In this document: piece after piece, positions 47,497 to 59,667 of the stretch
Layout: the number at the start of each line of letters is the position of its first letter
Numbering within the stretch: position 1 is the first letter of the stretch
From: Erysipelotrichaceae bacterium
GTDB lineage: Bacteria; Bacillota_I; Bacilli_A; RFN20; CAG-449
Assembly (NCBI GenBank): GCA_015059095.1
Contig: SVBA01000001.1
Location: 1-64,000 of the forward strand
Length of the DNA stretch: 64,000 bases
Direction of reading: 5' to 3'
Made by a program: the position numbers and the translations under genes
The notes under the pieces: model-generated
The model's input: the letters and a program-made list of their open reading frames with translations, nothing else
What the model was told of the DNA's origin: nothing
Databases searched by the model: none

Positions 47497-49185
47497 CTAC
47501 TTTTTGGCATCCTTTAGACATAGCAACACTATTGTCTCGAAAGTATTATTTGAGTCCCACTCAATTATATTACGTATTTCACCATTATAATAAATTGGGA
47601 ACTTAAATCTTATAGATTTAATAATCCTTCTATCTTCACGTCTTTCAGGAAAGATTTGAATCTCCTTAATAAAGCGATTCATGAATGTTTTTCTCTCCAT
47701 ATCATTCATTTTATCATATAGCTTATCAAAACAACATAGGCAACGATAAATTTCATCTGCAGTTACTTTATCTAATCTAATATTAGATATCTTAACTTCT
47801 AAATCTTCGATCTCTTTTTCTATCAATTCTATTTCATCGTAAAATGAAGAAAGTCTATTTTGCATATCTTGGTATTTTCTTTCATAATGCCTGTCATCAT
47901 AATCTAGTTTATCAATTTCTCTAGATAATCTATCTTTTAAAAGAATAGCATTATTTAAATTTTTCTTTTTATTTAATAACTCTTGATTTAACAAATCAAT
48001 ATCAACCTTATTTTCTATTAAACTTTTAGTCTTAATAGCAAACCTTTTATCCTTAACTAATCCTCTAATAATTTCTACTACAGCACTATCAACTAACTTT
48101 TGATTCCATTGTCTATTATAAGAACAAATCTTACCATCTAAATATGGGCGATGTTTACATTTATAATAAAAATTATCAGTATAGTATAGTTCAGGATTCT
48201 TTTTACTTTTCTTACGATTTACATTACCATACATCGAACCACCACAAATAGGACACTTTAATAAACCTGATAAAATATGTTCATGATCTAAACTATGTTT
48301 TTTAGGTTTCCAAGTAGAGGTGTCTTTTCTTTTTATTTGTGCTTTTAACCATATTTCTTCACTAATAATCGCCTCATGTTTACCATCACAAATCATATAT
48401 TCTTCTGATTTGATTTTATGAAACTGATTTCTAGTTCCTTTTATTTTAGCGTTAGTTCTTCTTCCATAAGCAATTTTGCCATAGTAGACTGGATTATCAA
48501 TTAATTTAGTAATGAAGTTAGAAGTAAAAGTATTCATTTTATTATTTAAGTGTGTTCGTTTACGATAGCCATTTTCATTTAAAAATATAGCAATCTTTTC
48601 ACTTCCCATATCGAAGTTAATATACTTATCATAAATTAATCTGACAATTTCAGCTTCTTCTGGAATTATCTTTAAAATCCCTTTATCGATTGCGTAACCA
48701 AATGGAGCCATGCCACCATTCCATTTGCCCTCACGAGCTTTTTGTCTTCTTCCTTCCATAGTTTGCACTAAGATATTGTCTCTTTCAATTTCAGATACTG
48801 CAGATAATACAGAAATCATTAGTTTGCCACTATCTTTAGAAGAATCTATACCATCTTCAACGCATATTAAGTTAACACCATAATCTTGCATTAATTGCAA
48901 AGAAGATAAAACATCTGCAGCGTTTCTACCAAATCTAGATAACTTAAAAACTAAAACATAATCTATATTATCAACTTGATTTTCAATATCCATTAGCATT
49001 TGTTTAAACTGAGGTCTACCATCTACATTCTTACCAGATTTACCTTCATCAGAATATTCTTTAATAACTTTCATATCAAATGCTTCAGCGTACTTTTTTA
49101 ATTTTTCTTTTTGTGCATCTAAAGAATAACCATCTACTTGCATAATAGTAGAAACTCTTGTATAGATGTAACATTTTTTAACCAT
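47497..49185 (-). CDS. Large serine recombinase (site-specific integrase/excisionase of the element)
   Basis: 562 residues from the preferred ATG at 49185 (AGGAGG, 8 nt upstream). The N-terminal catalytic domain has YTRVSTIMQVDGYSLDAQK (nucleophile Ser in R-V-S), then KLSRFGRNAADVLSSLQLMQ and SAVSEIERDNI. A Recombinase domain follows (APFGYAIDKGILKIIPEEAE), then a zinc ribbon (CPICGGSMYG and YYKCKHRP...C), and a long coiled coil around residues 390-480 that links subunits. It should insert and excise the mobile element between attP and attB. Downstream sequence contains a TTGTC site pair. Confidence 0.9.
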   Translation of the reverse strand: MVKKCYIYTRVSTIMQVDGYSLDAQKEKLKKYAEAFDMKVIKEYSDEGKSGKNVDGRPQFKQMLMDIENQVDNIDYVLVFKLSRFGRNAADVLSSLQLMQDYGVNLICVEDGIDSSKDSGKLMISVLSAVSEIERDNILVQTMEGRRQKAREGKWNGGMAPFGYAIDKGILKIIPEEAEIVRLIYDKYINFDMGSEKIAIFLNENGYRKRTHLNNKMNTFTSNFITKLIDNPVYYGKIAYGRRTNAKIKGTRNQFHKIKSEEYMICDGKHEAIISEEIWLKAQIKRKDTSTWKPKKHSLDHEHILSGLLKCPICGGSMYGNVNRKKSKKNPELYYTDNFYYKCKHRPYLDGKICSYNRQWNQKLVDSAVVEIIRGLVKDKRFAIKTKSLIENKVDIDLLNQELLNKKKNLNNAILLKDRLSREIDKLDYDDRHYERKYQDMQNRLSSFYDEIELIEKEIEDLEVKISNIRLDKVTADEIYRCLCCFDKLYDKMNDMERKTFMNRFIKEIQIFPERREDRRIIKSIRFKFPIYYNGEIRNIIEWDSNNTFETIVLLCLKDAKK

Positions 49186-49203
49186 TAACATTTCCTCCTT
49201 TCC

Positions 49204-49857: not shown

Positions 49858-51075
49858 TTAATATGCTTCCATTTCATCTTTATCGATTATACCTTCTTCA
49901 ATTAAACGGTCAATTTCGGCTTCTTTCATTCTTTGTAAATACTCCATAAATAAGCGATTCTCTTCATCTTCTAATCTAGAAGCAATTTGTTTATAGTGAA
50001 GTATTTTATCTAAGTCTTTCGAAACGCCAATTTCTTTTTTTCTACGTTCGTGTTTATCTTTAATATTGCTATATTGTTCATATGCTTTCTTTCTTTTTTT
50101 AACAGCATCTTTAATAACGATATTACCAAGTCGCTTTTTTAAATCTTTATGATATTTTTGATAAATCATATAGGAAGAAGGATCAATTCCAAATTCATTA
50201 CATAATTTTCTAACTCTATTATCTTCAGTAGTTAAAATATCATTAATTTCTTTAAATAAAGGTTTATGATAAGGATGATTCATATATAACTCTACAACTT
50301 GGTCTACAATACCTCTTACAGCGTCCATATTCTTACTTTGATAACTAATTGAACCAGTTTTAGGTATTTGTTCAAAAAGTTGTCTATAGTGGTAAAATAA
50401 GGCTTTTTCAAAGTCTTCAATGTTTTTACCTGCTAAATCTAATTTAATTCTTTCTAACGCTTTATATCTTGCTAAATTATATTTATGAACATCACTTTCA
50501 AAATGATTTATTATATTTAATTTTAACTCATCCATTGTTTTCTTTTTAAAAACACCTTTTCTAAAATGAGTATTCTTACTTCCTTTAGTATAGAAAATCG
50601 GCTCGTGTTCAAAAATACAAATATGGATATGACGATTATCAGTGTTTTCATGTAGGCCTGCAAACCAGGTAGTGTTTTCAAGTCTAAAGCCAGCACTTTT
50701 TAAAAACTTAGGAAAGACATCTTTCATTAACTCAATAGCGTCATTACCAGTTTTTAAATGTTCTTTATCATATCCTTTTTGTAAAGAGATTAAACAATCC
50801 CAAATTAACGATTTTGTTTTCCTTAATTTACTTCTAATCTCTTCAATTTCTTCTTTGGTTAAATATCCATTTTGATTAAAGACTCCAAATGATTTATCAT
50901 TATCTCCAACATAATTAAGATAATCAAATTCCTTAGTCTCATTTATACCAGTAGCAATATATTGCATATAATCTCCTCCGCCTGTAGAGGATGAATAATA
51001 CGCCCTTTTCTTATCACCGACTTCATAAAAATGAGATTTAAATACTACTGTCTTGCTACTAATCACGTAAGCCAC
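49858..51075 (-). CDS. mobL: MobL-family relaxase
   Basis: 405 residues, GTG start. The relaxase histidine cluster H-x6-H-x-H (H142, H149, H151 in GLHENTDNRHIHICIFEHE) matches MobL-type relaxases. These nick oriT, covalently attach to DNA and lead the strand in transfer. The catalytic Tyr is probably among the N-terminal tyrosines. A charged helical C-terminal half follows (LDKILHYKQIASRLEDEENR). No type IV coupling protein or secretion genes are present, so the element is mobilizable rather than self-transmissible. It overlaps the accessory gene by 17 nt. Confidence 0.82.
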   Translation of the reverse strand: MAYVISSKTVVFKSHFYEVGDKKRAYYSSSTGGGDYMQYIATGINETKEFDYLNYVGDNDKSFGVFNQNGYLTKEEIEEIRSKLRKTKSLIWDCLISLQKGYDKEHLKTGNDAIELMKDVFPKFLKSAGFRLENTTWFAGLHENTDNRHIHICIFEHEPIFYTKGSKNTHFRKGVFKKKTMDELKLNIINHFESDVHKYNLARYKALERIKLDLAGKNIEDFEKALFYHYRQLFEQIPKTGSISYQSKNMDAVRGIVDQVVELYMNHPYHKPLFKEINDILTTEDNRVRKLCNEFGIDPSSYMIYQKYHKDLKKRLGNIVIKDAVKKRKKAYEQYSNIKDKHERRKKEIGVSKDLDKILHYKQIASRLEDEENRLFMEYLQRMKEAEIDRLIEEGIIDKDEMEAY

Positions 51076-52774: not shown

Positions 52775-53341
52775 TTAACTATGATAATATCCATTTTCAA
52801 AGCAACTAACATTTGGAGCCAAATAACAATGAAAACAACTTTGATAATTGCTTACATAATTTTCATTGTCATTTTCCATTAGGTATCCACCCATTCCAAA
52901 ATCACAATATAAAATATCGAAATGTGAAGAATCTTCAGCATTGTCACTTCTATGATTAATAATTTCGTCTGTTAAATTAAAACTATAATAACAATATGTT
53001 TCTTCACCTAATTTCGCTATAGAAGAACTTGATAATAAAACACATTCTTCAAAAACCATTGCAGTATCATTAATATTTGTTATTTCATAATACAAACTAA
53101 ACGAATTAACGTTTTCTGTATAACAAAACAATCCTCCAACAATAATTTTTTTACTTTCAACAGATAAATAATCAATTTGATAGTAGCCTTTTTGAGTTTC
53201 TATTTTTTTATTAAACGAATCAACAGTAGTAGGTGTGTGATTTTCAGAACCACCTGTATTGCTGTTGCTACTATTATTAGAACTTGTACAGCTACATAGT
53301 GATAACATAATTAAGCCCAGTAAAAAAAATGTTTTTTTCAT
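52775..53341 (-). CDS. Lipoprotein, last gene of the sigma/radical-SAM locus
   Basis: 188 residues from ATG 53341 (AAGGTG upstream). Signal peptide with lipobox (LIMLSLCSC), lipidated Cys at residue 18. A Ser/Asn-rich stretch (SSNNSSNSNTGG) follows, then a domain with several Cys (LFCYTENVN..., YCYYSFNLT, LYCDFGMGG, YQSCFHCYLAPNVSCFENG). The Cys richness is unusual and may mean disulfides. No recognised family. It follows the cysteine-protease gene after 10 nt, in the same operon. Confidence 0.65.
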   Translation of the reverse strand: MKKTFFLLGLIMLSLCSCTSSNNSSNSNTGGSENHTPTTVDSFNKKIETQKGYYQIDYLSVESKKIIVGGLFCYTENVNSFSLYYEITNINDTAMVFEECVLLSSSSIAKLGEETYCYYSFNLTDEIINHRSDNAEDSSHFDILYCDFGMGGYLMENDNENYVSNYQSCFHCYLAPNVSCFENGYYHS

Positions 53342-53351
53342 AATCATCACC

Positions 53352-54773
53352 TTAACAAGTAGGCCAGGTCAGACTATTTCTATCAATTACACCAAAAGAT
53401 ACAGAACATTGATTTGGATCAAACCAATTAATTCTATTTCCGTTTCCATCAAAAAATGATGAGTCATTTATTGGACCATGTCCACTATCAACCATCCAAA
53501 AATATGCATATCTAGTTTCAGTCCACCATAAAATATCTACAGTATATGAATATTTAGCATAACCATAAACAGCCATAGCGTGATCATCATATGTTTCACT
53601 TCCATTTGTACTTATTAATGAAGGTATCCCATATTTGATATTTGATATAACTGACTCCGCAGAACTAGTTGTTTGGAAATCTATATTATATCCATACAAT
53701 TCATCAGTTTCTTCTACTAATTTTTTTGTTTTACTAAATTTCATTCCTTTGTTAGGCAAATATCCTTCGTCTATTGCAACCGTTCTTAATTGCATATATA
53801 AAATAGGAATATCTTCTATGGAAGGATTGCTTCGAGAGTTATTAATATAATTTACTTCCCTATAACCATCTAAGTATTCATTAAGATTTTGATCATATAC
53901 GGTTTCATAGTAAACAGTATCACCATAATCAGCATATAATTGATCAGCTAAAACAGCAACAGAATAATCCATAGTATTAGTACCGCTAAAATAATTTTCG
54001 TTATAACGCCAATTATAATAATAAGGGTTTTTCACAGTTGGTAAATTGGATAACATTGAATAAGTAGCATTAATAACACAATTACCCTCTGAAGAATAAG
54101 AAACTAAATTACCATTTTTTCTATAATAATTAGTTACATATACACTATTATCCATTTGATATGCCCACTTATAGCCTTTCAAATAACTACTTTCAACAAG
54201 TGTATAATTAGGATATCTATCAGCTACATAAGAATTTAAATCATATATTTGACCATCTCCTTCTTTTGCTTGGCCATTATGAATAACTGGCGTGTTTAAC
54301 ACTTCTTCCATTTTGCATATAACATCAGAAAATTCATTATTATATATTTTTTCATATCTATACTTTTCATCATTATATATTACAAATCCATCTATAGAAC
54401 TATAAGCAAAAGACTCAAGATGTCTAAGTTCTACTAAATCACCATTCGTTTCAAATTCATAAATTGTATCACTATCTCCAACCAAAAAACCATTAGAACA
54501 ATCAAAATCTATATAATAAACTTTTTTATTTTGGTTATTTAAAATTTCGATTTCTTTTATGTATTCAATCCCTTTTGGCGACCAATCTGAATTGCTTTCT
54601 GTTGCTTTTTCAAATAAATCCTTAAAAGATGAATATACGTAGTTGTAATCAACTAGATTACTTTTTAACTTGATTTCTTCATCCATAAACATATTGACAA
54701 CTTTGTTATTAATTGGAATGCCAAGACAAGCCGTCAACAAACATGTATTAAGTAATAATATTGTTTTTTTCAT
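53352..54773 (-). CDS. Secreted C10-like cysteine protease ending in -WPTC
   Basis: 473 residues. Signal peptide with a lipobox-like end (LLTAC, Cys16), so possibly a lipoprotein. A prodomain-like region around residues 80-130 (KVYYIDFDCSNGFLVGDSDT) resembles the inhibitory segment of C10 (streptopain-type) peptidases. Catalytic residues can be placed as Cys232 (EGNCVINATYSML), His398 (SYDDHAMAVYGY) and Asp429 (WMVDSGHGP). The last four residues are W-P-T-C, shared with the serine protease of the same locus. The partner lipoprotein genes lie 4 nt upstream and 10 nt downstream. Confidence 0.72.
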   Translation of the reverse strand: MKKTILLLNTCLLTACLGIPINNKVVNMFMDEEIKLKSNLVDYNYVYSSFKDLFEKATESNSDWSPKGIEYIKEIEILNNQNKKVYYIDFDCSNGFLVGDSDTIYEFETNGDLVELRHLESFAYSSIDGFVIYNDEKYRYEKIYNNEFSDVICKMEEVLNTPVIHNGQAKEGDGQIYDLNSYVADRYPNYTLVESSYLKGYKWAYQMDNSVYVTNYYRKNGNLVSYSSEGNCVINATYSMLSNLPTVKNPYYYNWRYNENYFSGTNTMDYSVAVLADQLYADYGDTVYYETVYDQNLNEYLDGYREVNYINNSRSNPSIEDIPILYMQLRTVAIDEGYLPNKGMKFSKTKKLVEETDELYGYNIDFQTTSSAESVISNIKYGIPSLISTNGSETYDDHAMAVYGYAKYSYTVDILWWTETRYAYFWMVDSGHGPINDSSFFDGNGNRINWFDPNQCSVSFGVIDRNSLTWPTC

Positions 54774-54777
54774 TCTT

Positions 54778-55275
54778 TTACACCCCTTTTGTAAAATTTT
54801 CGATTTCTGATATATTCACATATAAGTATGTTTCAACATACCCTTTTTGAGAAATACATAAATTAAAAGATAATGTATCAGTAGTAGTATAATCAATGCA
54901 ATCATCGTTAAAAGCCAAGATAAAGTCCCCTTCATAATTAAATTCATCAACATTATTGCTTATTAAATTTAGCGATTTGGTTTGCTCAATGTTCAGTTCA
55001 ACATTATCGCTATTTTGAGTTATTAAAGCCATATTTTCTAAAGATTTAAAATCTTTAAAAATAAAATAACCATATAGATAAATAAAGTTTTCCTCTTTTA
55101 TGGCTTTATTAATTTTGTATGAATTTCCTAGACTATCACTCACCATACTATTAATATAGGATATATAATATGAAGATGGTTTTTGTTGTTCGCTATTAGA
55201 ATGAGGGTTTTGATAAAAGCATCCTGAAAGAAATCCAGCCAGCAAAATACATATAACTATTTTTAATTTTTTCAT
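54778..55275 (-). CDS. Lipoprotein of the sigma/radical-SAM locus
   Basis: 165 residues from ATG 55275 (GGAGGAAA upstream). Signal peptide with lipobox (AGFLSGC), lipidated Cys at residue 19. The mature part is a small beta-rich domain with no recognised family. It stands between the radical SAM gene and the cysteine protease gene (4-nt gap), so it may act as a substrate, inhibitor or anchor of the protease. Confidence 0.65.
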   Translation of the reverse strand: MKKLKIVICILLAGFLSGCFYQNPHSNSEQQKPSSYYISYINSMVSDSLGNSYKINKAIKEENFIYLYGYFIFKDFKSLENMALITQNSDNVELNIEQTKSLNLISNNVDEFNYEGDFILAFNDDCIDYTTTDTLSFNLCISQKGYVETYLYVNISEIENFTKGV

Positions 55276-55355
55276 TATTATTTCCTCCATATATGTTTAT
55301 AATTTTTATAAAGTTAAACATTATTATACATCGGTCTCACCTATTTTTTTAGTAT

Positions 55356-56711
55356 TTAATATTTCTTATTTAAATTATCAAAGACTTTCTTTCCTTCTAT
55401 AAAATTATATTCAGGATGCTCTTTTAAAAATTTATCTAATTCTTTATCTAATTTACTTCTAGATCCTACTTCTTTAGTAAAATCTAATAGTTTCATAAAT
55501 TCAAAATTATTTTTATTTTGAAGTGTAATAACAAAATAAATTGCTAATAATATAAGATGTTTTTTATATTTACACATTAATTTATTATTTCCTTTAGATA
55601 ATGTTTTTTCTATTAAACATTCTCCTCCACAAATATACTTAACACTACAATCTTTACAATAATTTCTATTCATTTGAATATCAAATAATTTAGATTGTGC
55701 ACTATAATCAATTAAATATAAATTACCTACTTTAAATTCTTCATATTCTATAGATGAAGGACAAATATAAATATTACCATCATCATTTAACGTTAATCTT
55801 GATAGCCCTCCATCACATCTAATTAAACATCTTTGATTTAAGATTATTCTTTTTATAAATTTACCAAAATAGTCATCACCATTTAATAACGTTTTAATAT
55901 ATTTATGATTACCTTTTATTGATTCATCAATTAAAAATAAAGTTAATTTATCATATTCTTTTAACCATAAATCAATTGAATTATCATCAAAAGCTTCATT
56001 ACAATTTCTTGCTGGTTTATACCCAATTGTATTAAATGTTTTACTTAATTCTTTAATAGAATTTACTAATGAGAAAACATCTTTAGTTAATGTTGTAGCA
56101 CATCCAACATATTCATGATGAGGAACATTATTTACATTTTCAATAATATCTTTATATGTTTCTTTATTATCTATTGTTCTACGATGTTTGTTATGAATTA
56201 ATTCATTACCATCTAAACTAACCCCAAATAATATTCCTCTTTTTTGTAATATATCTGCTACTTCTTTAGTAAGTAATGTTCCATTACATACAAATGAAAC
56301 TAATATTTCTCTATTAATTTTATTTGATATTGTTTCACAATACTCTTTTACTTCTAAAATAGTTTTTAAGAATAATAAAGGTTCTCCTTTACCACTTAAA
56401 TCAACATAATATTTTTCTTTATTAGGATATGTATTAAAGCACAAATCTAAATATTGTTTTATAGTATTTAAATCAATAGATTTACCATTTTTATTACTAT
56501 TAAAACAATAGTCACATTTAAGATTACATCCATTAGATAAATTAATACAAAACACCATTGAACTTGTATTATAATCATAAAAACTTAAATTTACATAATC
56601 ATAGTTATTTGCATAAAAATTATTTTCTAATATGTATTTATAAATACTAAAATTCCCATTTGAACTTTCAATATAAATATCTAAATCTAAAATATTTTCT
56701 TCAATAATCAT
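55356..56711 (-). CDS. Radical SAM enzyme with a SPASM domain (peptide or protein maturase)
   Basis: 451 residues from ATG 56711. The iron-sulfur motif CNLKCDYC (Cys62, 66, 69) is the C-x3-C-x2-C of radical SAM enzymes, with the GGE-like LSGKGEPLLF. The C-terminal SPASM domain has its Cys set (QRCLIRCDGG, IYICPSS, YCKDCSVKYICGGECL, LMCKYKK) for two auxiliary clusters. Such enzymes modify peptides (thioethers, epimers, crosslinks) or act as sulfatase maturases. No sulfatase is present. The N-terminal 55 residues are not a recognised leader-binding domain. Its neighbours are two secreted proteases with a common C-terminal tail. Confidence 0.85.
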   Translation of the reverse strand: MIIEENILDLDIYIESSNGNFSIYKYILENNFYANNYDYVNLSFYDYNTSSMVFCINLSNGCNLKCDYCFNSNKNGKSIDLNTIKQYLDLCFNTYPNKEKYYVDLSGKGEPLLFLKTILEVKEYCETISNKINREILVSFVCNGTLLTKEVADILQKRGILFGVSLDGNELIHNKHRRTIDNKETYKDIIENVNNVPHHEYVGCATTLTKDVFSLVNSIKELSKTFNTIGYKPARNCNEAFDDNSIDLWLKEYDKLTLFLIDESIKGNHKYIKTLLNGDDYFGKFIKRIILNQRCLIRCDGGLSRLTLNDDGNIYICPSSIEYEEFKVGNLYLIDYSAQSKLFDIQMNRNYCKDCSVKYICGGECLIEKTLSKGNNKLMCKYKKHLILLAIYFVITLQNKNNFEFMKLLDFTKEVGSRSKLDKELDKFLKEHPEYNFIEGKKVFDNLNKKY

Positions 56712-56775
56712 TAAATACACATCCCTTTACTATATAAGTGTTATAAAGCATTCAATTTGGTGTTACTATTTTTCT

Positions 56776-57936
56776 TTAACATGTTGGCCAGTTATGTTCT
56801 GTTACGAAACTATTTAAATAATGGAAAATAAATGAATTAATTTTAGTTGCGCCATTATAATTTGTTTGATTTCCGAATAACCAATACCAATTTGTATGAG
56901 TAATTACACCAGTAACATAAGTGCCTGAATTAGTATCTACAAATAGAGGTGAACCACTTTGACCAGGAATGATATCAAGTGTAGTTTTGTAAAAATAATC
57001 AGTTTTACCACTAATCGTTCCTGTAGACAACCACATTTCTCCATCTTTATCTTCCGGATATCCAAATGAATATACGGCATGATCTTTTTCATACCAATTT
57101 CCAATTTTTCCATTCCATCCAGTTATATTTCCAATATTAGATGATAATGTTACAGCCGCCCAGTCATAATCTTTATCTGGATTTTCATAATATTCTTTTT
57201 GAATACTAATAATACTAGCAGTAATATCATAACAATTAGATATATCATTATCACCATTTAAGCCAGGATAGTAATGAACTTCATCTGGGAAAGTGTAATT
57301 TATAATATTGTCATCTAGCACTCCTTCAGAAGTAACATCTGCATAAATAACATGAGCGGCAGTTAAAAGCAAATTAGGTCCTTGCAATGATCCGGTTCCT
57401 GATTCTGTATGAGTGTATGTTACACCATCTGTCCCTTTAAGACCATACCAAATCGCTTCAATTAATCCTGTAGTATAATATGGAAATGCTTTTGGATTTG
57501 TAACTCTAATTCTCTCATCTTCTCCTATAATCCCTATTGTACCTCTTGTATTTGCGTTTAATGAATTTTCAGAAGAAGGATTATATCCATTTGTAAACAT
57601 TATCCCCTTTTCTTCATTATACTGAATATTTGTGGAAATTAATTGTTCATTACTTTCAAGTGAAATATTTTCATTAATAGTTCTTGTTCCATTTCTTTTA
57701 GCATATGAGTTTTCGTTAAATAATTCAAAACTAGTAATACCAGAAGAAACATTATAATTAACCATATTATAACTTGATGAACTCATAACAATTGATCTAG
57801 GTGTCGTTTCATCACTTGAAATATCTGAAATTTCTATTTTGTAATCACTAACATTTTGTGTTTTAAAACACTGAAATTTAGGTACATTTATCATAGATAA
57901 TAATGTCGACAAACTTAAAATTAAAATTTTATTCAT
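56776..57936 (-). CDS. Secreted V8-like serine protease ending in -WPTC
   Basis: 386 residues. Signal peptide, then a propeptide of about 120 residues. The trypsin-like domain has the triad at His195 (LLTAAHVIYAD), Asp258 (DKDYDWAAVTL) and Ser327 (DIIPGQSGSPLF), matching glutamyl endopeptidase/V8-type proteases. The C-terminus is H-N-W-P-T-C, the same W-P-T-C end as the cysteine protease three genes on. It is the first product gene after the sigma/anti-sigma pair, separated by a 103-nt gap that may hold a promoter. Confidence 0.83.
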   Translation of the reverse strand: MNKILILSLSTLLSMINVPKFQCFKTQNVSDYKIEISDISSDETTPRSIVMSSSSYNMVNYNVSSGITSFELFNENSYAKRNGTRTINENISLESNEQLISTNIQYNEEKGIMFTNGYNPSSENSLNANTRGTIGIIGEDERIRVTNPKAFPYYTTGLIEAIWYGLKGTDGVTYTHTESGTGSLQGPNLLLTAAHVIYADVTSEGVLDDNIINYTFPDEVHYYPGLNGDNDISNCYDITASIISIQKEYYENPDKDYDWAAVTLSSNIGNITGWNGKIGNWYEKDHAVYSFGYPEDKDGEMWLSTGTISGKTDYFYKTTLDIIPGQSGSPLFVDTNSGTYVTGVITHTNWYWLFGNQTNYNGATKINSFIFHYLNSFVTEHNWPTC

Positions 57937-58039
57937 ATATTATTTTCTCCTTTATTAAGTTTTTATATTTTGTAAACAATATTGTATATATAAAAATAAA
58001 TGTTTAAAACAATAAATATTGGTGATTTTTATAGTTAAA

Positions 58040-58915
58040 TTAGAACATGTTTTTCTTAGAAATATTTTTTATAATATAATCAATGAAATTATTCACTTTT
58101 TCTTCACCAATATAGAATGTTTTAGCAGTGCCTAAAATATTAGTTTGAATATATCCTTCATCATTTACTGCTAACGAAACATTTTCAATTCCTAATGCTT
58201 CTATATCAGAACTGATACTCATTAATGGATTTTTGTAATTATTATTTGTTAAACTTGTATTTGTTAAAGAATAATCCGAAAGTAACATATCCCAAACAAT
58301 AGAATCATCAAAATCTTTATATACAATATTATTTTTATATGTTGCAGTTCCAAATTGCAAATACTCTTCTAAATTTAATTTTTCTATAAAGTCACCTAAA
58401 GTTTCAAATTCATAATTTGTATTCAAATATGAATAGTATTCTTTATCACCTTCGAATTTTATTGCGTATGCACACTCTTTATAAACATTTTTAATTTCAT
58501 AAATTTCCGCATTGATAAAATACTCCTTATCTTGATTATAATCATCAATTCCACTAACAGTAATATCATCAACCTTATTTCCAACATATTTAGTATCAAT
58601 TCCTTCTTTTATTTCAGTTGAAAAAATAGTGTATCGAATATTTGAATATGTAAATGTTGGATATTTTTGAACAATACTTTTGTCCTCCCAATATTGAACT
58701 ACAAAACTGTTATTAATTATATTAGGTAAAACAACACCTCCCGTTATCAAAAGGATAAGCATAGAACAAATACCAACCATTAATTTATTAAAATATACTT
58801 TATTTTGATTCTTTACATTATTTACAGAATAGTTTATTTTACTAGCAATTGATTCGAAATCTCCATTAAATGGAAATCGCATTTTAAGTTCTTCATCCAT
58901 GAAGTTATTTTGCAT
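58040..58915 (-). CDS. Membrane anti-sigma factor-like protein
   Basis: 291 residues from ATG 58915 (GAAAGGAG 8 nt upstream). The cytoplasmic N-terminus is about 45 residues, then one transmembrane helix (LMVGICSMLILLITGGVVL), then a 220-residue extracytoplasmic domain. The start overlaps the sigma gene stop by 11 nt, so production is coupled one to one. This is the standard arrangement of an ECF anti-sigma factor that senses a cell-surface signal. Its extracellular part is of no recognised family. The N-terminus is shorter than a typical zinc anti-sigma domain and has no HxxxCxxC. Confidence 0.72.
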   Translation of the reverse strand: MQNNFMDEELKMRFPFNGDFESIASKINYSVNNVKNQNKVYFNKLMVGICSMLILLITGGVVLPNIINNSFVVQYWEDKSIVQKYPTFTYSNIRYTIFSTEIKEGIDTKYVGNKVDDITVSGIDDYNQDKEYFINAEIYEIKNVYKECAYAIKFEGDKEYYSYLNTNYEFETLGDFIEKLNLEEYLQFGTATYKNNIVYKDFDDSIVWDMLLSDYSLTNTSLTNNNYKNPLMSISSDIEALGIENVSLAVNDEGYIQTNILGTAKTFYIGEEKVNNFIDYIIKNISKKNMF

Positions 58916-59450
58916 ACTTCTTACTCCTTTCACTATTTTTAAATTTTTTTACAGCTCTTTCAAAAGTTTTATTTATAGTCTTAGATTTAATTTTATATAT
59001 TTTCTCTAATTCATTAAAAGTTAATCCATCAACACAATGCTTTATAATGATAGATACCTCATAATCAGATAAAACATTTCTTAAGTCATCAACTAATTCA
59101 TTATATAAATAATGACTATTTTTATTATCAAAAGATATATTAATTTTATTTATGTCATCAACAAGTATAATATTGTTTTCTTTTTTTAAATAATTAATTG
59201 CAATATTTCTAGCAGAAGACAACAAATAATATTTTACAGAACTTTTAACATTTAATACATTTTCAAAAAAGTTTAAAAAGACATCATTTGTAAGATCTTT
59301 AATAAGTTCAATATCAGTACAATATTTTGCAATACAAAAAGCTACTAATTTATAGTATTGATAATAAATATACTCATATATTTCTCTTATCTTTTTTTCA
59401 TCACCTTTTGATAAAGCGTTAGATAAGAGTTGATCAATTTTCTTATCCAT
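58905..59450 (-). CDS. ECF-type RNA polymerase sigma factor
   Basis: 181 residues from ATG 59450 (GAGGT 8 nt upstream; the open frame extends to 59546 but those codons lie in repeats). Region 2 (EIYEYIYYQYYKLVAFCIAK, NDVFLNFFENV, LLSSARNIAINYLKK) and region 4 (VLSDYEVSIIIKHCVDGLTF then TFNELEKIYKIKSKTINKTF) are present; there is no region 1 or 3. It would direct polymerase to the protease/radical-SAM genes when released from its anti-sigma factor. Confidence 0.8.
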   Translation of the reverse strand: MDKKIDQLLSNALSKGDEKKIREIYEYIYYQYYKLVAFCIAKYCTDIELIKDLTNDVFLNFFENVLNVKSSVKYYLLSSARNIAINYLKKENNIILVDDINKINISFDNKNSHYLYNELVDDLRNVLSDYEVSIIIKHCVDGLTFNELEKIYKIKSKTINKTFERAVKKFKNSERSKKYAK

Positions 59451-59497
59451 GTAATTTAACCTCGAATTCATAATTATGTTTTCATATAATAAGACAA

Positions 59498-59543
59498 TTT
59501 TACATATTAAAATGCGACACATATTTATTTTTTTGTCACATAT
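59498..59543 (-). promoter_or_regulatory. Repeats upstream of the ECF sigma gene
   Basis: On the minus strand ATATGTGACA (59543-59534), ATATGTGTCG (59524-59515) and ATATGTAAAA (59507-59498) are spaced 19 and 17 nt. The pair TGTGACA...TGTCGC spaced 14-15 nt resembles an ECF -35/-10 and could be the autoregulated promoter, but it is unproven. Confidence 0.35.
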
Positions 59544-59667
59544 CAATTATATCATTATTTACATTTATTTTATCCAATATTAATATATAAGACACTACTA
59601 AAAAGTAAAAACAAACAATTCAATTAAAAAAGCTGTGCAATTACTCCTTACAAAATTTTCTAACAAC

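Follow-up and report, generated by a model that had tools for sequence, protein, structure and literature searches.

Two unrelated secreted proteases that end in the same four residues, W-P-T-C, are encoded beside a radical SAM enzyme with a SPASM domain (rSAM) in the genome of an Erysipelotrichaceae bacterium. Comparison of this locus with its relatives points very probably to a two-part post-translational modification system, in which a dedicated SPASM rSAM is paired with a C-terminal cysteine tag on unrelated Sec-exported proteins. The locus lies at positions 52775–59450 of the window, i.e., the whole 64,000-nucleotide stretch of DNA analyzed here (contig SVBA01000001.1, positions 1 to 64,000). 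Known radical SAM maturases act for the most part on small leader-bearing peptides or on one dedicated protein each, and no description of a system combining a C-terminal Cys with an rSAM was found in open-access papers or family libraries. At the sequence level, the linkage of enzyme and terminal Cys, the absence of this Cys from homologues without a linked enzyme, the tracking of tail residues with enzyme relatedness, and the lack of any other universal gene are established.

All genes of the window locus are encoded on the minus strand. The papain-like (C10/C39-like) secreted cysteine protease (473 residues, 53352–54773) ends in ...NSLTWPTC and the trypsin/V8-like secreted serine protease (386 residues, 56776–57936) in ...TEHNWPTC. 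The coordinates and codons given in the original prediction were confirmed, including the differing Pro and Thr codons of the two tails (TGG CCT ACT TGT TAA at 53352–53366 and TGG CCA ACA TGT TAA at 56776–56790). Among the open reading frames (ORFs) of at least 100 residues in the window, these two proteases alone end in Cys. The pattern TGGCCNACNTGYTRR has two sites in the 1.76-Mb genome, both of them the WPTC tails of the window, and none in the reversed control. For the cysteine protease, the C10-like label used earlier is approximate: its Peptidase_C39_2 match lies below the Pfam threshold, a sequence search against the PDB gave no match, and a fold search with the AlphaFold2 model returned weak papain-fold matches only. 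In alignment A2, whose members share 18–30% identity with this protease, ten columns are invariant, and the terminal Cys occupies one of them, alongside the conserved C232, H398, and D442. The final residues of the model are disordered, which fits the expectation for an accessible tail.

Relatives were gathered by an enzyme search followed by profile searches of the order, a sample of the class, and GTDB contigs. A single-sequence scan of genome contigs with the window rSAM (454 residues, 55356–56720), the proposed modifier of the C-terminal Cys, gave no matches, whereas the profile of alignment A3 did. By profile search, the rSAM family was detected in 20 of 279 genomes of the order and in 12 of 395 sampled genomes of the class. 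Two paralogues are present in the same genome as the window and more distant ones in the genus; neighbors of these relatives also end in Cys (TIPVC, IYSMC, and FPPYC). In 37 of the 46 rSAM family loci, a protein with an exact terminal Cys, usually Sec-secreted, is encoded within about 4.5 kb, and seven of the nine exceptions (L044, L052, L053, L057, L115, L118, and L120) are close to contig ends; the other two are L013 and L010. Cys ends near the enzyme exceed chance: in the first 33 loci of the family, 29 of 215 ORFs lying no more than 3.5 kb from the rSAM were Cys-ended, compared to 2 of 242 at greater distances (Fisher p = 1.7e-8). The carriers are gut and sediment bacteria of the Bacilli, mollicutes, and Clostridia, and according to record titles they include Acholeplasmataceae, Anaeroplasma, and Izemoplasma-type lineages, which lack peptidoglycan. 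One cultured carrier is the Mycoplasmatota strain zrk2 (CP076020, locus L074/L131), with the tail ITHIGSC. The rSAM was the sole gene present in all 37 sampled loci. The next commonest families, namely papain-like proteases, extracytoplasmic function (ECF) sigma factors, and ATP-binding cassette (ABC) ATPases, occurred in 7 of 37 loci each, and among ORFs of 80 residues or more, the Cys-tail loci showed no third conserved one (smaller ORFs were not clustered). As only the rSAM is universal, the enzyme and the terminal Cys constitute the minimal module.

Homologues of the tail proteins with and without a linked enzyme were compared in several families. In the order, papain-like homologues were Cys-ended in eight of the nine rSAM-positive genomes with a readable end (window, G069, G075, G076, G054, G080, G145, and G092). 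The papain-like gene of G092 (L084) is located on a different contig from the rSAM and still ends in Cys (...VDLSLC). None of the five intact papain-like homologues in rSAM-negative genomes was Cys-ended (VVME, LIVG, KYTW, EENA, and SEAQ); a further homologue, in G025, is disrupted and lies outside this count. Similarly, none of 11 trypsin-like homologues in other genomes ends in Cys. The closest of them extend exactly at the WPTC site (...SFIFHYLNSFVTEHN|WPTC in the window compared to ...SFIFHYLNSFVSYHN|YEHLAAT... and ...FLNSFVANHN|VIYEV...), so that the tail of the window protease takes the place of the C-terminal extension of its relatives. The rSAM-linked MACPF protein ends in ...KIIYSMC, and none of nine other MACPF proteins is Cys-ended; near relatives stop at the same place with other residues (...RVDITLRK). 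Within the order, DUF6973 proteins turned up in 4 of 273 genomes, and all four adjoin an rSAM family member and end in Cys. The original prediction had staked its reading on the tail being rarer without the rSAM gene, and this is what three unrelated protein families show.

The 40 tail proteins fell into 20 clusters at E < 1e-4 and into 18 at E < 0.01 with filters off. These clusters, which lack detectable similarity to one another, take in papain-like proteases, one trypsin-like protease, one MACPF protein, DUF6973 proteins, and many proteins that match no Pfam family. A clear N-terminal hydrophobic stretch of the Sec type was present in 33 of 40 (crude score), and a transmembrane-like stretch within the last 40 residues in none. 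The tag follows the consensus hydrophobic-[P/S]-x-C-COOH, in which the terminal Cys alone is invariant across the family. Pro occupies position -3 in 18 of the 40 tails and Ser does so in 11, position -4 is mostly hydrophobic or Pro, and position -2 varies widely, with no acceptor residue conserved across clades. An acidic residue (D/E) at -2 to -8 occurs in just 16 of 40 tails. W-P-x-C is restricted to one rSAM clade, and other clades use IPVC, FPPYC, -SRC, -SSC, or -LVEC. W-P-T-C itself, proposed earlier as the signal, therefore has to give way to the C-terminal Cys as the general one.

On the rSAM tree, the tails sort by clade, with WPxC around the window enzyme, PPYC/PPLC/PRYC going with DUF6973 proteins, -SRC/-PRC/-ARC in Clostridia, and -SSC/-PSC/-SGC in the mollicute-type clade. 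Among non-homologous tail pairs, the residues preceding the Cys (-2 to -4) were the more alike the higher the rSAM identity (permutation P of about 5e-4 with all tails and P = 0.004 with 25 representatives), and as tail homologues within clades are not independent, these values are indicative only. The tracking supports, without proving, a match between enzyme and tail at the level of sequence. The original prediction is thus upheld in part: its core, a tail tied to the rSAM gene, is supported by the recurrence on unrelated proteins (about 40 loci), the absence in unlinked homologues, and the tail–enzyme tracking.

The SPASM radical SAM assignment of the window enzyme was borne out. It scores above the cut-offs of Pfam Radical_SAM and TIGR04085 and carries the radical SAM motif CxxxCxxC (C65/C69/C72), the family motif NGDD-x-FG, and a complete seven-Cys SPASM motif (C302, C320, C355, C358, C364, C368, and C383). 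The spacing (C302...G-x4-C320, C355xxC358x5C364x3C368, C383) agrees with the SPASM pattern CX9-15GX4C-CX2CX5CX3C-C. All ten Cys, three of the radical SAM motif and seven of the SPASM motif, are invariant in alignment A3, and the family has no conserved eighth SPASM Cys ligand. The enzyme remains below all NCBIfam equivalog cut-offs. The best-scoring model is that of PapB (NF047865), which 25 of 25 members of A3 match; the window enzyme reaches 158 bits against a cut-off of 340. Scores were lower still for QhpD (TIGR03906, 113 bits, cut-off 453), SCIFF/CteB (TIGR03974, 89 bits, cut-off 425), and the anaerobic sulfatase maturase (TIGR03942, 83 bits, cut-off 349). The small six-Cys peptide expected beside a SCIFF-type enzyme is missing, the window neighbors being proteins of 170–473 residues. 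The AlphaFold2 model of the rSAM (mean confidence score, pLDDT, of 92) has CteB as its nearest PDB fold (E 2e-21) and the anaerobic sulfatase-maturing enzyme anSME as the second. In this model, the N-terminal region of about 50 residues forms a hairpin and a short helix before the core and appears unlike a full leader-binding domain of enzymes acting on ribosomally synthesized and post-translationally modified peptides (RiPPs), although no search specific for the RiPP recognition element was made. Family-specific residues for binding of the C-terminal carboxylate were sought in the rSAM alignment, and none was singled out since nearly all invariant residues are shared with a sister RiPP group.

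In CteB, an open site of auxiliary cluster I binds the substrate Cys, whereas the clusters of anSME are fully ligated (PMC6231123). With a CteB-like open site, the terminal Cys would probably become a ligand of the cluster and finish with a C–S bond to an upstream residue. As the original prediction did, we infer thioether or crosslink chemistry of the tail; judged from the seven-Cys SPASM domain without an eighth ligand and from CteB as the nearest fold of the model, a thioether is the most likely outcome. According to the proposed mechanism, the rSAM would bind the flexible tail in the cytoplasm, prior to Sec export or in the course of it, with the terminal Cys as the point of contact. Auxiliary cluster I would probably receive the thiolate at its open site, and the 5'-deoxyadenosyl radical would take a hydrogen from a nearby carbon. 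The product would be a thioether, 2 Da lighter and forming a small C-terminal macrocycle, or a related oxidized Cys, and the mature protein would be exported with a blocked, thiol-free C-terminus. More speculatively, the substrates would be secreted effectors such as proteases and the MACPF pore-former, often accompanied by small lipoprotein inhibitors or immunity proteins, and a subset of loci would be under ECF sigma/anti-sigma control. In its general form, the proposal is that a single dedicated SPASM enzyme modifies any exported protein that bears a terminal Cys (hydrophobic-[P/S]-x-C). The resulting new kind of C-terminus would arm or protect secreted effectors in Bacilli/mollicutes and Clostridia; this wider claim we consider somewhat favored.

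Besides the non-independence of the tails, several points weigh against the two-part system. The candidate substrate of L013 ends in ...PYIPYCG, with one extra Gly beyond the Cys. The rSAM of L010, on contig C11 of the same genome as the window, has no terminal-Cys neighbor and may act in trans or represent an orphan; it is a third rSAM copy (63% identical) with probable IS607-type transposon genes immediately downstream. The rSAM-positive genome G125 possesses an unlinked papain-like paralogue (L091) that runs past the Cys position. A CGCG-x-LME segment is present in L091 (L091:102-1841) where L045 and L051 end in Cys, and L091 continues. Furthermore, the PapB-type Cys–Asp ranthionine had to be rejected as the likely reaction. 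PapB requires a Cys N-terminal to the acidic acceptor and is inactive on the transposed order (PMC9413430); because the Cys is the last residue here and a minority of tails offer an acidic acceptor, the known reaction of the best-scoring model is ruled out. Finally, the target site could be located elsewhere, with the Cys serving for docking only.

Further genes accompany the family loci. Small lipoproteins are frequent neighbors; in the window, one of 170 residues (54778–55290, lipobox LSGC) is a probable inhibitor or immunity partner of a tail protease, and one of 191 residues (52775–53350) is a probable partner of the papain-like protease. Lipoproteins also adjoin papain-like proteases without rSAM and tail (L085, L087, and L090). 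As they also occur in rSAM-negative genomes, they were rejected as part of the tagging machinery. They may act as inhibitors or immunity proteins. Tandem small lipoproteins resembling amplified immunity genes were observed beside tail proteins at L055:6407-8322, L119:6497-7897, and L125:10728-12707. The window locus is led by an ECF sigma factor (58905–59546, true start likely near 59450; TIGR02937 above cut-off) and a probable anti-sigma factor (58040–58933). The sigma factor and the two lipobox proteins of the original prediction were thus recovered, and the anti-sigma factor, which matches no Pfam or NCBIfam family, owes its assignment to its position and a single hydrophobic stretch. Since ECF sigma/anti-sigma pairs border several distant loci (window 58040–59546, L042, L043, L121, L123, and L125), control of expression by stress or a signal may be an ancient trait. 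In one rSAM clade (L013, L053, and L072), a four-gene ABC transporter module is located between the rSAM and the tail protein; as such modules occur in this minority only, a conserved transporter was rejected as a general part. A large serine recombinase (47497–49191, minus strand) and a MobL relaxase (49858–51075, minus strand) adjoin the window cluster, and the locus may be flanked by, or be part of, an integrative mobilizable element.

The sister group on the rSAM tree comprises enzymes of Ruminococcus bromii, Pseudoruminococcus, and Treponema located beside double-glycine-leader peptides or proteins. A C39-peptidase ABC exporter was confirmed by Pfam at the R. bromii locus. Double-glycine-leader peptides at L144:9497-9829 (Ruminococcus bromii) and L141:9598-9867 (Pseudoruminococcus) adjoin sister enzymes of 592–594 residues. 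The Treponema proteins L139:6283-7590 and L140:9116-10354 combine a double-glycine leader with repeated GGG-x-C, lie beside a sister-group rSAM and C39-like transporter genes, and are possibly unusual protein-sized RiPPs. Because the sister group adjoins such leader peptides and shares nearly all invariant residues, the rSAM family probably arose from peptide maturases that gave up leader-bearing peptides as substrates in favor of the tails of proteins exported by Sec.

Of the other explanations, the one we regard as a serious, if not favored, possibility is that the rSAM oxidizes the terminal Cys itself, by a sulfatase-maturase-like C-terminal aldehyde, epimerization, or decarboxylation, with no thioether to another residue. 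With a variable position -2 and no conserved acceptor, the only constant atoms are those of the Cys and the carboxylate, and anSME, the second-nearest fold, acts on full-length proteins. However, seven SPASM Cys without a conserved eighth indicate a CteB-like open auxiliary cluster I, whereas anSME is fully ligated (PMC6231123), and the closest sequence models are thioether-forming maturases. It is unlikely that the modified Cys serves to tether the protein covalently to a lipid, a glycan, the cell wall, or a lipoprotein for sorting or anchoring. A C-terminal tag on unrelated exoproteins is reminiscent of sortase and exosortase tags, and lipoproteins are frequent neighbors, but these also accompany papain-like proteases that lack rSAM and tail, and all 40 tails lack a transmembrane stretch ahead of the Cys. 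The lipid attachment suggested in the original prediction found no support, as no second conserved enzyme was found in the sampled loci, and general wall anchoring or peptidoglycan attachment is unlikely because wall-less mollicute lineages carry the system.

Both remaining explanations appear highly improbable. According to one, the terminal Cys would serve disulfide pairing or metal binding, and its linkage to the rSAM would be incidental, through common mobile cassettes. The sporadic distribution (20 of 279 genomes of the order) and the mobilizable element beside the window locus suggest that a cassette may move. Mobility alone, however, can neither place an exact C-terminal Cys on 18–20 unrelated groups nor explain the loss of the Cys in unlinked relatives of three families or the tail–enzyme tracking. 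According to the other, the substrate of the rSAM would be a small peptide that escaped detection, with the secreted proteins as helpers in its export or processing, as might be expected from the Ruminococcus and Treponema sister enzymes with their double-glycine-leader peptides or proteins and C39-peptidase transporters. No C39 transporter was seen beside the Cys-tail loci, though, nor a third conserved ORF of at least 80 residues (with smaller ORFs not clustered), and the terminal-Cys pattern would be left unexplained.

The two-part rSAM–Cys-tag system differs from each known system it resembles. CteB and the other SCIFF/sactipeptide maturases (TIGR03974) share the radical SAM and SPASM domains, the seven auxiliary-cluster Cys, and the nearest solved structure, but CteB acts on a small leader-bearing peptide, whereas the putative target here is the terminal residue of secreted proteins that are full-size and differ widely in fold. 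PapB, the top NCBIfam model, remains below its cut-off and uses a Cys upstream of Asp/Glu. QhpD, a SPASM rSAM, acts in the cytoplasm on a larger polypeptide, into which it introduces thioethers (PMC7876137), and is a precedent for modification before export, but its sole dedicated substrate has internal Cys and carries a leader. Similarly, anSME acts on a Cys of exported proteins, but at an internal CxPSR site and with a fully ligated auxiliary cluster I. The TglHI pearlin pathway modifies a C-terminal Cys by an MNIO enzyme (PMC12452194), which belongs to another superfamily, and that Cys is added to a scaffold peptide and released later. Sortase, exosortase, and rhombosortase tags are likewise short C-terminal tags common to unrelated exoproteins; unlike these, the rSAM-linked tag ends the protein, with neither a transmembrane/basic segment nor a sortase-like enzyme.

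If the proposed system is confirmed, it would be the first rSAM modification set by a portable C-terminal tag instead of a leader peptide or internal motif, and a portable four-residue tag that recruits an rSAM to unrelated full-size exoproteins would represent a new class of protein modification. It would provide a handle on C-terminus chemistry, with a possible biotechnological use as a ligation or protection tag. For the carriers themselves, the tag would offer a way to pick out secreted effectors that otherwise lack annotation in gut Bacilli, mollicutes, and Clostridia.

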